Of a stretch of 64,000 nt of DNA, positions 29,301 through 56,820 are shown piece by piece. Source of the DNA: Mucor racemosus (Eukaryota > Mucoromycota > Mucoromycetes > Mucorales > Mucoraceae). Under the pieces are notes generated by a model. It was not told the origin of the DNA and did not search any database. It saw only the letters and a program-made list of their open reading frames with translations. Position 1 is the stretch's first letter. Each line of letters opens with the position of its first letter. Made by a program: the position numbers and the translations under genes. Location of the stretch: contig JAPEHQ010000004.1 in the NCBI GenBank assembly GCA_027405735.1, forward strand, positions 1 through 64,000. The letters run 5' to 3'.

Positions 29301-30240
29301 TTTGAATAAAAAAGTTCTTTCTTTTTTCGACTTTTCTTATATTTAACCATGTGCAGTCTGAAAATTCAGTTTTTGTAGCGGACATTTTCGGGGCTCATTT
29401 TATCCTTACTAACACCCATGATTTTGATCAAAAAACAGAAAAATCAAATTTCGATACCAAAATCAACCTTTGAATATACTACATTGTAAAAAAAATTGTA
29501 GCCATAGCTAATACACATTTTATAAAAGCTTAACATCAAAAGTTGTATAATAAAAGTTTGTATTTTTGGTCCAAAAACGTTTTTTTGGTTAAAGGATTTT
29601 CATGTAATATTTTACAATAAAAATGTTTTTTATTTTTTATTAAATAAATAGAGTGCTAAATTTTGTATGGGTACATATTTTTTATTTTTATGATTGGTAG
29701 TATAATTAGCTCTAAATCTTCAAAATAAGAAAAAAAAAAATCGGAAAATGTCAAAATTGACGATCTGGACAAGAATATTTTTTGAAAGTTATATTCCACT
29801 TATAAGCCCTGTAAATCTTAAAAATAAGAAATTTCACGATATTTGAGAACTTTTTCAAGAAACTACGATGCTGTACTCATTCAATTCAAGTTTATTACTA
29901 TAAATTTAAATACATCAAATTGTCTGGTTCCACCTACAGTATTAAACGAGACGAGATGCGTAGGAAACCATTTCACACTATACACATAATTGTCTGCGTG
30001 TTCAAATGAGTAAAGAGGAGGGAAAGCGGATGCTTTCTAATAATATGCTTATAAAAAAGGGGGCAGGCCAATCAAAGATCAATGTTTATAAAAACATACA
30101 TTTTTCGACTAGAGAGACAGTAATCGAGAGTAACTGAATAACGCTGCCAGTCATGATACATTCAGTAAAAAAAAGACTGCAAAAGCGAACTCACAGGGCG
30201 ACACCGTAATCGAGCGTAGCGAGATAGAACGGCTAGTGTA
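29301..30240 (+). mobile_element. Dynein-fragment repeat, copy A
   Basis: About 0.94 kb. It shares long blocks with 55590-56820 (same orientation) and 46010-47320 (reverse): GACATTTTCGGGGCTCATTT, TTTTGATCAAAAAACAGAAA, GTCAAAATT...GATCTGGACA, GGGGGCAGGCCAATCAAAGA and a tail with GTAATCGAGCGTAGCGAG. In this copy the captured dynein sequence is cut to about 85 bp (29927-30011). Confidence 0.9.
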
Positions 30241-30477
30241 TATATACAATAAAATGATTTATTTTTCGCAAGTTATGTCTATTACTTTTTTGGCATTATA
30301 AATTGGAAATGCATAAGAGTCCAATGCACAGTGCTTCCAACAAACAGTATCCCAGTCAGTCAGAACTGATTTTGCTGGTTAATCAAAATTAATATATCCT
30401 GTGTTTCTTTGGCACTATCTCGATTGTTTTTTTTCCTTTGCGCCTATTATTCCTTTTTACAAGTTATTTACTTACCA

Positions 30478-31270
30478 TGTTGACCTTAGACCAAGCTTCC
30501 TGTCCCATATTAGGCTATCGACCAAACAACCCAGAAGAAAGACAAAAGGCTAAAAAAACATCTACAGACAAGTGATCTCATCACAGCCTATCTACATGAA
30601 AATGACCCTTTTCGCCCTATGGCAATCGGCATGGAGGTGATCGAAAGAGGCCCTTTCACGTTCATATCATATCCAGAATCTCCTAGAATCTTAACAGTAG
30701 ATGAGAGTTATATGTAGATAACGATTATTTCCAATACAATAGAAAAAGACTACAAGTAATAACACTACGGAGAACGTAATGCCTTTATTATTAAGCTAAA
30801 AAGAAGCCAGGAGCCGTCAGGTCCTAGATTCTAAAAGTATTTATACCATTTCAATTCTATTTGGATGTCAGGCTCAATATGGAATTGAAATGAAATTTAA
30901 CATAAATAATAGGTAAGAACCTATAGTAGATACTTATCAATCACAAGCTAACAATAATAATGTGGGTCTTGGAAACAAGATTCAAAATGATTATAATGAG
31001 GATCTTGGGAACAATATTCAAAACAATAATGACGAGGATCATGGAAACAACCGTAAAAATGATGATGTTGATGACGAGAATATTAAAACTGAACAAAAGA
31101 GAGATTGTAACGGTGAGGTGATATCTTTCTGTAAGAATCGCTTATTGCAATTGATAAATGCTATCGTAAGCCATGGGGATCCTCATAATAATGATTGCTA
31201 TGATAAAAAATTTGTCAGAATGGAATCTCAATATGAAATGACGAAGACTATTTTCCCAAGAATTGAATAG
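30478..31270 (+). pseudogene. Unidentified gene remnant
   Basis: ATG at 30478 opens MLTLDQASCPILGYRPNNPE. One frame change inside an A-run near 30555 restores QTSDLITAYLHENDPFRPMA, then IGMEVIERGPFTFISYPESP, up to TAG at 30718. Farther on, 30962-31270 encodes an Asn/Asp-rich segment with repeats of GNNIQN-D-ED-GNN and then RLLQLINAIVSHGDPHNNDC. The protein is not recognised. The frameshift and stop argue for a decayed gene. Confidence 0.5.
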
Positions 31271-33029
31271 TACTGCATAATGAATCAATATTGGATCACT
31301 CAGGCTGGACCTTGGGGGGGGGGGAAACATCCAGATGTACAGTCAACGGCTTAAAGGTTTCTGGCCGCAATTTGTGGATAGTAAAAGAGCGATGTCGAGG
31401 TAACAGTAATATTAACTATTAACACTGAATTAAAACTCATATATACAGTATTACTAGCATTCCTGGCAGGCAGCTGCAATTCGATTTCAGCATATTGGTC
31501 CCATTTTCAGAAAAGCTCTGATCTCACAACGTTTGGGTATGCGAGTAAATCTCCCACAAAGGAGACAGGGGCATCAAGAGTCCGTCTCCTGCAACTACTG
31601 GTTGATAAATTGTATTTTCGTGGCAAATGCGAGGAAATGTTTGTTAGCTCTTGCTGTCTGGCGAACCAACAACCTTTACTTGAACGAAATCATCCAAGAG
31701 CAAATGAAACTTTAGTATCATTAAGATGTTGCCGGGGCGATATCACTGGTGAATATCGGTACTGTAATATCACAATATTTTTGCTGCCATAATTTACTGA
31801 CAGAATTTTGTAAATCTCACATCAAAAATTCACTATACACAAAAGAGAATACGTCTTGTTATTATCGACTATGCCGGATTATCCACCTGTCCTGAAGATA
31901 TTCAAAAGTTTTTGAAGTAAAGCTGAAGAAGAAGAGTATTTAATACAGATATACTAATTTACAGTACTACAAGAAAATCCTTCCATAATTCCTTGTAGAA
32001 TTATCTGTTTTTCCTCCTCTTTATATCCTTATTTATTTTCCTTAATTAATATCAACCTTCCTTCAACCAATGCTTACCAACGTCTAATATTAAAGATCGT
32101 ATCATTAACATCTTATTTTGACCATAATATTTGACCAAGATCGCAGATCATTACATTTATTACTAAAGTATATAACATGAGCTTACATACTCAGAAGCAG
32201 CAATGACTAAATATCGAACAGATTTTTCTATCCGAACAGATTGGAATACACGTGGTGCTTAATATATTTACCATTCCTATTTACTAGAAATGACACTTGA
32301 CAGTTTTGTCAGATGCGAATATATGCATTCAATATTTGTTCTGATATCTGATCACTAGTAATATGTATAATAAGATAATATATATAATAGGTCGATAGTA
32401 TACAAGTGGGATTGATTGTTATGAATCCATCTTGACCTGGGCTCTGATTTTCACATGGAACGTGCGTTTTTTGTTATACATAAAACAATGTCTAATCACT
32501 TGAACAGTAATTAAAAAATCGAGATGAATTAATCAATTATACTTTGAAACTGTATATCAACTTGGCAGTTACCCATTACTAACATTCAAATAACAAAGGA
32601 TGTCCTTGTATATAGTTGTTTTATTTTAATGATAAATTAGTTTTTTATCCAGGGTGTCAGAGATATTTTTATATGTAAATCCTACAAATTAAATCAATAA
32701 AATCCTATCTCTTTGTCTTCCTTAACACTATTTCGTTGTACATTTACTTTTATAAAGCATATAGCAATTATAATATTGTATATTTCATACCGTGTTGTAT
32801 ATTCTAATAGTTTTTTTTTGACTACGACAAACAAACTATTCGTCATTAAATATATTTTTTCAACTTTTTTTCTTTAAATCAAGCTGAATAGCTATAATAT
32901 ACGATCCATTTTCATTTTGTCAAGTTAGCCTATATCTATCACTTTGTACTATCTTCCAAATAGATATTATTCTTTATAAAAACTCGAACTCATAACAATA
33001 TAACACAAGCATTACCCAAATCCATGAAT
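31271..33029. other. Spacer with scraps and LTR-like copy (32138-32302, minus)
   Basis: A G-tract (31314-31324) and a short coding-like stretch at 31533-31790 of unknown origin. At 32138-32302 lies the reverse complement of the LTR-like repeat that adjoins tRNA-Cys (ends TGACACTTGACA on +). The remaining sequence is AT-rich without gene signal. Confidence 0.6.
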
Positions 33030-55400: not shown

Positions 55401-55430
55401 GAACTACTAACTCTCTTATACTACATATTA

Positions 55431-55557
55431 GGGTGGCCAAAGTATTAGAGGTTTTTTTTTCGAATTTGTGAAAAGGTGATATTTGTGTCTATCTAATAAA
55501 TACACGAAATGTAATTTTTTGGAAAAAAAAAAAAAAACTATAATACTTTGATCACCC
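55431..55557. mobile_element. Tc1/mariner-type MITE, 127 bp, TA target
   Basis: Inverted ends GGGTGGCCAAAGTATTAGAG and CTATAATACTTTGATCACCC (17 of 20 pair), flanked by TA on both sides (55429-55430, 55558-55559). It has no coding capacity. Confidence 0.88.
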
Positions 55558-55589
55558 TATATGTATACATACAGTATATACTGTATATG

Positions 55590-56820
55590 ATATATCCAAG
55601 TTTTAAATAAAAAATATATTTTTTTTTCAACTTTTCTTGTGTTTAACTATGTATGGTCTGAAAATTCAGATTTTGTAGCAGACATTTTCGGGGCTCATTT
55701 TACCCTTACCAACGCTCGTGATTTTGATCAAAAAACAGAAAAATCAAATTTTGATGCTAAAATCAACGTTTGAATATACTATAATGTGAGAGACAATTGT
55801 TTTTGTAACTAATACGCATATTATCAAAGCTTAATATTAAACTTTAAATAATAAAACTTTGCACTTTTGTCCCAAAAACGTTTTTTTAATTAAAGGATTT
55901 TCATTTAATATTTTGTAACCAAAATAACTTTTATTTTTTATTAACCAAATATAGCACTAACTTTTTTATAGGTACGTATTTTTTGTTATTATAATTGGTA
56001 GTATATTTAACTCTAAATTTGCAAAATCAGAAAAAAAAATTGGAAAATGTCAAAATTAATGATCTGGACAAGAATAATTTTTGAAATTAAATTACCGTTT
56101 ATAAGCCCTATAGGTCTTAAAAGTAAGTTGTTTTACGATATTTGAGAACTTTTTCAAGAATCCACGATGCTGTACCAATTTGATTCAAGTTTATTACTGT
56201 AAATCCCTACATCTATTAATATCGTGTAGTATTTTATTCGATAATAATATAGTATTACGTTCTAATTATCGCGCTAGAGTTGATTTACATTGATTTTTTG
56301 TCTTACATCTCCAATTGCAGAAACATAAACATGGCCATCACCGGAACTTATTGCTGTCTTTTTACCCTCTTTATCTCAAGCCAATTTATCCAATGCTTTA
56401 CCAGAGTCAACTTGAACACTTACAAATGGTTCCTCGGTATCTGCATTCAAATTCCATAAATCAAATTGGTCGATTCCATCTACAGTAACAAACAGGGCGG
56501 GATGTGTAGGAGACCATTTTACATCATACACATAATGATCTGCGTGTTCAAATGAGTAAAGAAGAAGGATAGTAGATGCTTGCTAATAATATACTACAAA
56601 AGGTGGTTTCTAAAAAAAAGGGGGCAGGCCAATCAAAGATTAGAATTTTCTTTAAAAAAAAGGATGTTTATAAACCTCATTAATATTTGTCGCAGAAACA
56701 TACATTTTTCAATTAGGGAAGCATTAATCGAGCGTAACGAGGTCATATGATACATTAATTAAAAAAATTGCAAAAGTGAGCCTGCAGAGCTATGTCGTAA
56801 TTGAGCGTAGCTGATGTATC
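55590..56820 (+). mobile_element. Dynein-fragment repeat, copy C
   Basis: The longest copy, about 1.2 kb. The minus strand from about 56590 to 56280 reads LLLYSFEHADHYVYDVKWSP, THPALFVTVDGIDQFDLWNL, NADTEEPFVS and DGHVYV, with one in-frame stop near 56378. This is the WD40 region of cytoplasmic dynein intermediate chain. The flanks are the same non-coding blocks as copies A and B. Confidence 0.9.

Follow-up and report, generated by a model that had tools for sequence, protein, structure and literature searches.

A high-copy repeat family carrying the 3′ end of a dynein intermediate-chain gene in Mucor racemosus

Host gene fragments are carried and copied as DNA by non-autonomous elements such as Pack-MULEs and other transposons with terminal inverted repeats (TIRs), and a dynein intermediate-chain gene was a source of the multiplied genes of the Sdic family of Drosophila. 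Helitrons capture sequence by skipping their 3′ end, and circular intermediates have been described for them (PMC5148889); a Mucor Helentron protein was used in another study (PMC4067079). In maize, captured copies can act as sources of small interfering RNAs that silence the donor gene, according to work cited in PMC13317346. Here we describe a repeat family of Mucor racemosus, three copies of which (A, B and C) lie in the first 64 kb of contig C4 (JAPEHQ010000004.1; hereafter the window) of a 53-Mb genome assembly and join part of a dynein intermediate-chain gene to about 0.6 kb of non-coding sequence, the core. We consider it probable that these copies belong to a non-autonomous mobile family that arose when genomic DNA was captured, a single time, at the 3′ end of the cytoplasmic dynein intermediate-chain gene of the host.

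The family resembles the group formed by Helitrons, Helentrons, HINE and DINE-1, including the non-canonical Helitrons of fungi (PMC5148889, PMC4067079): its members are high-copy non-coding elements that carry a gene piece with its intron, and the family unit contains tandem repeats. Capture by end bypass combined with circular intermediates (PMC5148889) would yield a unit flanked by two copies of one block, the structure found here, but the Helitron end tests fail. Unlike Helitrons, the family does not have TC...CTRR ends, the tested copies have no subterminal inverted repeat, and the sole Rep-like domain in the genome is degenerate. It differs from Pack-MULEs and other TIR transposons in that the end blocks of the founding unit are direct, and the truncated units called type 1 below lie between long inverted arms only in some places. 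Whereas Sdic is tandem at one locus, recent and functional, the Mucor family is dispersed and broken. The maize case is one of epigenetic conflict, while the sign in Mucor is an excess of silent changes in the donor exon, read from sequence; the word "synonymous" does not occur in the main text of PMC13317346. The titles and abstract openings of openly licensed literature contained nothing resembling this family.

The parent gene and the captured block

Protein searches with the captured fragment retrieved full-length intermediate chains from Mucorales, P0121 of Mucor velutinosus ranking first, and among solved structures the copy C fragment matched cytoplasmic dynein 1 intermediate chain 2 best (E ~1e-20), in agreement with the identity given in the first-pass annotation. 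The part of the P0121 WD40 region that lies outside the fragment has a single match in the genome (6/6 candidates scored), at C4:386371-387063 on the minus strand with 98% identity. The parent locus, L033, occupies C4:384.5-387.8 kb, on the same contig as the window. Read in gene direction, with splice sites predicted from sequence, L033 shows introns at 1393-1449 and 1747-1807, with an exon from 1450 between them; the last exon has its stop at 1898-1900, the core occupies 2105-2777, and a further block, which we call T, ends at ~3111. Exon, intron, last exon, core and T are contiguous at this locus. The ~0.6-kb non-coding core is the dynein gene's own downstream flank and no foreign mobile sequence attached to a WD40 piece, while the capture, multiplication and broken state of the gene piece, as proposed in the first-pass annotation, stand. 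No relatives of the parent gene were found among the viral and genome contig collections searched, and a core 25-mer had 0 matches in viral contigs.

The captured block runs from ~22-24 bp inside the exon, through the intron and the last exon, to ~1.2 kb past the stop. Its intron was not spliced out: it is whole in type 3 and partly kept, with its start, in types 1 and 2 (the forms are described below), which indicates that genomic DNA was captured, and none of the three types has the removed introns of a processed pseudogene. The founding form reads T, exon, intron, (last exon, untranslated region [UTR]), core, R, T, where R consists of degenerate short repeats and T is the far end of the same parent flank. 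The end of T runs directly into the exon in 22 of the 26 type-2/3 loci searched. Founding-form copies have these internal junctions in common, and not their flanks. T as an independent short repeat was ruled out, all 13 fetched T sites being in the family (5/5 further sites carry exon and core, 8/8 more carry core).

A consensus of 29 type-2/3 loci encodes the parent's protein save one residue, and 57/57 tabulated loci side with the consensus at most of the silent sites at which it differs from the parent; these shared silent differences argue for one capture. The 29 type-2/3 loci used for the consensus and for silent-site divergence (dS) include A and C (as L001), with L011 and L072-L077 excluded, and the 28 type-1 loci include B, with L053 and L057 excluded. 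Rows repeating others were removed (L031, L032, L034, L035, L036, L040, L043 and L051, L033 being the parent), and near-identical type-1 pairs were kept (L012/L013, L017/L018, L015/L050, L024/L027). Trees were built from the 29 type-2/3 and 15/28 type-1 loci, minus rows under half length.

Copy number, forms and spread

Mismatch-tolerant patterns miss diverged copies, so that the pattern counts given here are lower bounds, and the listed DNA and protein matches are the best-scoring part of longer candidate lists, with intact copies over-represented. A core 30-mer with ≤3 mismatches was found at at least 1757 places in the genome (920 + 837; reversed control 0), a 36-mer within the captured exon at at least 756 (374 + 382; control 0), a T 33-mer at at least 63, and a 43-mer from the first part of the captured exon at at least 37, the parent, A and C among them. 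All 40 scored DNA candidates (best of 2510) and all 150 scored protein candidates (best of 2163) belong to the family, and 19/19 candidates match the last-exon/UTR segment that types 1 and 2 lack, parent counted and some of them partial. Searched genome-wide, the family outnumbers the three copies first noticed by a factor of hundreds.

In type 3 the exon, intron, last exon, UTR and core are all present. Type 2 has lost ~340 bp between two TAAATCAA motifs (parent positions ~1766 and ~2110), and a further form joins exon position 1604 to ~2190 (copy A, L065, L068 and L071). The majority of copies seen are a truncated derivative, type 1, which includes copy B: it begins in the exon at ~1566, lacks the same 340 bp as type 2, and gives way within T to other repeat sequence. 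With an in-frame stop in the type-1 consensus, the dynein piece appears, as far as can be seen, to have no protein function now. In the core tree type 1 falls among types 2 and 3 with weak backbone support, and L010 and L041, classed as type 2, fall within type 1. Three short open reading frames (ORFs) on small ENA contigs resemble the family: the type-1 junction motif FIIRRADDTFDTIVDGTSQFNLWNLN is found in P0140, which has the stretch TSQFNLWNLN in common with P0147, and P0146 has the appearance of type 2/3. The family thus probably extends beyond this assembly and may exist in other Mucor genomes or samples.

Type-2/3 copies match each other within the unit but not in the sequence flanking it, which argues that the unit moved. 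A host gene piece multiplied by something mobile, as the first-pass annotation proposed, agrees with these observations, since the piece is neither confined to three places nor embedded in long shared flanks, the picture expected of a duplicated pseudogene, and instead lies at hundreds of places with unrelated flanks in founding-type copies. Some type-1 copies do form near-identical inverted pairs with arms of ~1-3 kb, as could arise if an immobile pseudogene had been duplicated segmentally or in tandem; but type-2/3 copies share the unit alone and not its flanks, and copies lie on many contigs, which contradicts duplication for these types and makes it highly improbable as an account of the family.

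The direct orientation of the T blocks around the unit recalls a retroelement of long terminal repeat (LTR) type, or a terminal-repeat retrotransposon in miniature, copied through RNA. Left and right T, however, are two persistent classes: a T stretch of 10-14 bp occurs in 8/11 right T copies and in the parent, and in 0/15 left T copies. Their persistence across copies indicates that units were copied whole and not by LTR-style synthesis, which would make both T alike at insertion. Direct terminal repeats alike within a copy were not found, and the kept intron also speaks against this route, although not decisively if the RNA was antisense. We regard copying through RNA as scarcely credible.

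As to the class of DNA element, Pack-type and Helitron signatures had been called unclear, and they are. The end blocks of types 2 and 3 are direct, so that terminal inverted repeats are lacking. Right ends read TAAG, AAAG, TTGG and TTAAG in four copies, instead of the CTRR of Helitrons, and left ends vary without a fixed TC start. AT follows the right end, directly or one base later, in four copies and the parent. The genome has one match (1/1 candidate) to the Helitron-like Rep domain PF14214, at L079 (C19:40023-40505), with two internal stops, against 0 matches in 14 control genomes; apart from one 28-bp match, L079 and the family have nothing notable in common. A scan for subterminal inverted repeats of the Helentron/HINE kind (~12-15 bp), covering L047/L005 and L038 only, gave a single low-complexity 8-mer match between the left end of L047 and the right end of L005, and none in L038. 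Rfam searches at E up to 1 over five loci returned 0 structured RNA matches, hammerhead among those sought, and at the gathering score over the window only a tRNA.

We propose that the founder may derive from part of a circle, or of a tandem repeat, of parent positions ~1474-3111, or else from reading through between a T copy in the exon and the T of the flank. Its spread would then have taken place at the DNA level, along a circular or rolling-circle-like path or through another kind of DNA transposition. A derivative that lost the left T, the exon start and the 340-bp segment would have been joined to other repeat sequence and multiplied, as type 1, into hundreds of copies.

Several observations weigh against a mobile family founded by one capture from L033. 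The left end of the unit is not sharply fixed, and the ends of type 1 were not found. No transposase, Rep protein or target-site duplication could be tied to the family (for target-site duplications, none was evident to the eye and no systematic test was made). The silent-site divergence of the parent, treated below, does not fit a simple neutral history. Lastly, the parent falls among the copies in the core tree at supports of only 41-54, so that the tree is no proof of the parent as ancestor. This position in a weak tree also suits a different history, in which an older element, composed of core and T, landed downstream of the dynein gene and took the end of the gene along when it next moved, the parent flank itself being one insertion of the family. 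The parent core lies 6.5% from the consensus against a copy mean of 9.9%, no closer than expected of an ordinary copy, and the bases after the parent T end begin with AT, as in the four copies whose right end was read. Such a history remains unlikely in our view, because the small sample contained neither T away from the core nor a core-only ancestor whose left end recurs between copies (L074 and L077 have no dynein sequence before the core, but their cores start at differing positions).

Silent-site excess in the parent exon

Over 91 codons, the parent exon differs from the 29-locus type-2/3 majority consensus by 24 silent changes and 1 replacement (dS 0.58; replacement-site divergence, dN, 0.005). 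The replacement lies at the block edge, where the parent has proline; since the consensus and P0121 have alanine in common, the proline looks derived in the parent. Two replacements were scored in the last exon, one at 1893, where consensus and P0121 agree against the parent, and one at 1823, where support for the consensus is weak (0.43). Non-coding parent sequence differs from the consensus at 98/1272 positions (0.081), so that exon dS is 7.1 times the non-coding distance (bootstrap 95% range 4.1-12.4). The copies themselves differ from the consensus by dS 0.105 and dN 0.086, as neutral decay would give. A consensus almost undamaged as coding sequence points to an amplification burst soon after capture, and the silent sites of the parent appear to have moved ~7 times faster than its own flank after that burst.

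Divergence along the parent falls near position 1760, from 24/91 exon third positions, through four differences at 1751-1758 of the intron, to 6.5-9% in UTR, core and T. This drop is what a mosaic parent would show, with exons from a lineage diverged from the captured one and with the sequence from the intron to the 3′ end replaced by that of an element copy, by recombination or gene conversion; templates for such an event are abundant among the element copies. A mosaic requires two special events, and the dS of the last exon (0.29, from 4 silent changes only) is also above the non-coding value. We regard it as a serious possibility, though one with somewhat less than an even chance of being right.

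The divergence also differs between parts of the gene. It amounts to dS 0.75 in the part carried by type 1 (at least 756 copies), 0.35 in the part found in types 2 and 3 only (dozens) and 0.29 in the last exon (type 3, ~18), differences among the three coding parts that are suggestive only; third positions changed at 18/60 sites in the type-1 part against 3/31 (p 0.04; another count gives 61 for the first part). Of the parent 21-mers, only 2/161 from the type-1 part recur anywhere in the fetched sequences, compared with 320/653 from the core. A fall of dS with the copy number of each part, down to 0.08 in the non-coding flank, together with this loss of matching 21-mers, could mean that selection favoured silent changes in the parent exon by which it ceased to be a target of small RNAs or other homology-dependent silencing arising from the copies. 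The family would then have endangered its own parent, silencing by dynein-bearing copies driving silent-site replacement until the match was lost while the protein stayed fixed. This hypothesis is consistent with the action of RNA interference (RNAi) on transposons in Mucor (PMC7377519) and with the silencing of maize donor genes by captured copies (PMC13317346). On the other hand, the core is present in even more copies and is not raised in divergence, although it may lie outside the mRNA, and the changes are not significantly evenly spaced (p 0.11 in the type-1 part, p 0.28 over the whole exon). We put escape from silencing forward tentatively, as a less probable account of the excess than a mosaic parent.

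Window copies, type-1 surroundings and significance

The three window copies are real, being recovered with strong scores by self-BLAST of the window where the first-pass annotation had placed them (Table 1). A and C align at 83% over 616 bp, A and B at 85% over 378 bp, and B and C at 82% over 511 bp plus 84% over 381 bp. All three are broken, as had been noted, by stops in B (TAA) and C (TGA) and by a deletion of the remaining exon and intron in A, a deletion form that recurs in L065 and L068. Copy A keeps more dynein sequence than the ~85 bp first credited to it. Intermediate-chain motifs had been ascribed to both B and C: HPALFVTVDGIDQFDLWNL, with its HPALF motif, is present only in C, while KLAWDKE...SSDGHV does occur in B, which begins later in the exon and reads VVDGISQFNLWKLN...KLAWDKE...SSDGHVNV. 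The TAA of copy B is in frame and at the same place as the stop of the type-1 consensus.

Table 1. Positions in the window of copies A, B and C, their parts and adjoining repeats
Feature	Position	Strand	Remarks
Copy A, best extent	29292-30248	-	strand of dynein
A: core (parent positions ~2192-2775)	29322..29905	-	86.5% to L033 core
A: first 126 bp of captured dynein exon	29910..30035	-	80% to L033 exon
A: left T block	30086..30248	-	83% to left T of L047
Copy B, best extent	45663-48901	+	strand of dynein
B: type-1 upstream repeat sequence X, outside dynein homology	45663..46052	+	aligned with L069 and other type-1 loci
B: later part of captured exon	46053..46233	+	83% to L033 exon
B: core, first part	46248..46571	+	84% identity
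Separate 232-bp repeat inside B	46569..46800	.	inverted ends GACGGATATC; 3-bp direct repeats outside
B: core, second part	46800..47151	+	90% identity
B: R/T remnant	47180..47283	+	77-80% identity
B: type-1 downstream repeat sequence Y	47284..48901	+	gap ~47561-48030; aligned with L069, L070
Long inverted repeat arm adjoining B	48909..50646	.	partner 58651-61693
Copy C, best extent	54986-56811	-	strand of dynein
C: right T block	54986..55158	-	84% to L033 T
C: R, degenerate short repeats between core and T	55158..55423	-	79% to L047 R
C: core	55620..56292	-	85% to L033 2105-2777
C: captured dynein exon with one TGA, then intron start	56308..56581	-	84% to L033 exon; translation
C: left T, ending directly at exon	56583..56811	-	junction read in L001 (= copy C)

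Two short elements interrupt these copies. The 232-bp repeat inside B is 99.6% identical to window 9661-9892, has direct repeats ATA and ATT outside, and with its inverted ends is a recently active element resembling a miniature inverted-repeat transposable element (MITE). Between core and R of copy C, ~55429-55565 has inverted ends AGGGTGGCCAAAGTATTA and TAATACTTTGATCACCCT with TA adjacent, and we take it to resemble a mariner-type MITE.

No sharp ends were found for the sequence that carries type-1 units. At L070 a 4-kb type-1 unit lies between partly inverted arms (618-1405 vs 8712-7922, 76%), copy B is followed by its arm and L069 has no arms. A sharp left end at position 1080 of L022 was rejected, as other copies continue past it. 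The long inverted arms of the window are 96-99% identical in parts and enclose a sugar-transporter gene and copy C. A sugar transporter encoded in the window shows 98% identity to a protein cluster named Mucor fragilis, other Mucorales ranking next, which points to a host in Mucor or closely related to it. Among the protein matches listed, nine same-contig pairs with equal scores are all inverted and 3-24 kb apart, the cores pointing towards each other in some pairs and away from each other in the rest, and in the sequenced pairs the arms of ~1-3 kb are 97-99.97% identical. These pairs are either recent inverted duplications or arms kept alike by conversion.

Other repeats and genes lie nearby. 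Two ORFs of 648 and 236 amino acids (aa) at 21685-24383 on the minus strand stand next to an arm-like repeat (20361-21141); they were considered as partner of the long arms and set aside, the arm homology reading as ending outside them. The 648-aa ORF has no Pfam family at E 0.1 and the 236-aa ORF a sub-threshold match only. A 729-736 bp repeat, present at window 43437-44168 and 59327-60055, at L061 2718-3449 and also in L015, L016, L029 and L058, is ~95-98% identical between most places (91% in L058); its insertion in the long inverted arm is accompanied by a short duplication. A type-1 unit in L061 holds, at 3619-5288, a 1.7-kb element, presumably Tc1/mariner-like, whose inverted ends measure 229 bp (97%) and which contains a 135-aa ORF. 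Window 3759-5072 and 7640-8664, on opposite strands, match DEAD-box helicases (437 and 227 aa scanned), look RecQ-like by eye and are possibly mobile-element genes.

Gene capture by transposons is of a known kind; the traced parent, the founding junction of T with the exon and the silent-site anomaly are notable additions to it. Together they provide a near-complete record of one gene-fragment capture in an early-diverging fungus, from the parent locus and the founding junction through the deletions to a derivative in high copy number. Should escape from silencing be the cause of the silent-site excess, captured fragments would be able to force a donor gene to rewrite its synonymous code, an idea made testable by a genus in which RNAi acts on transposons (PMC7377519).

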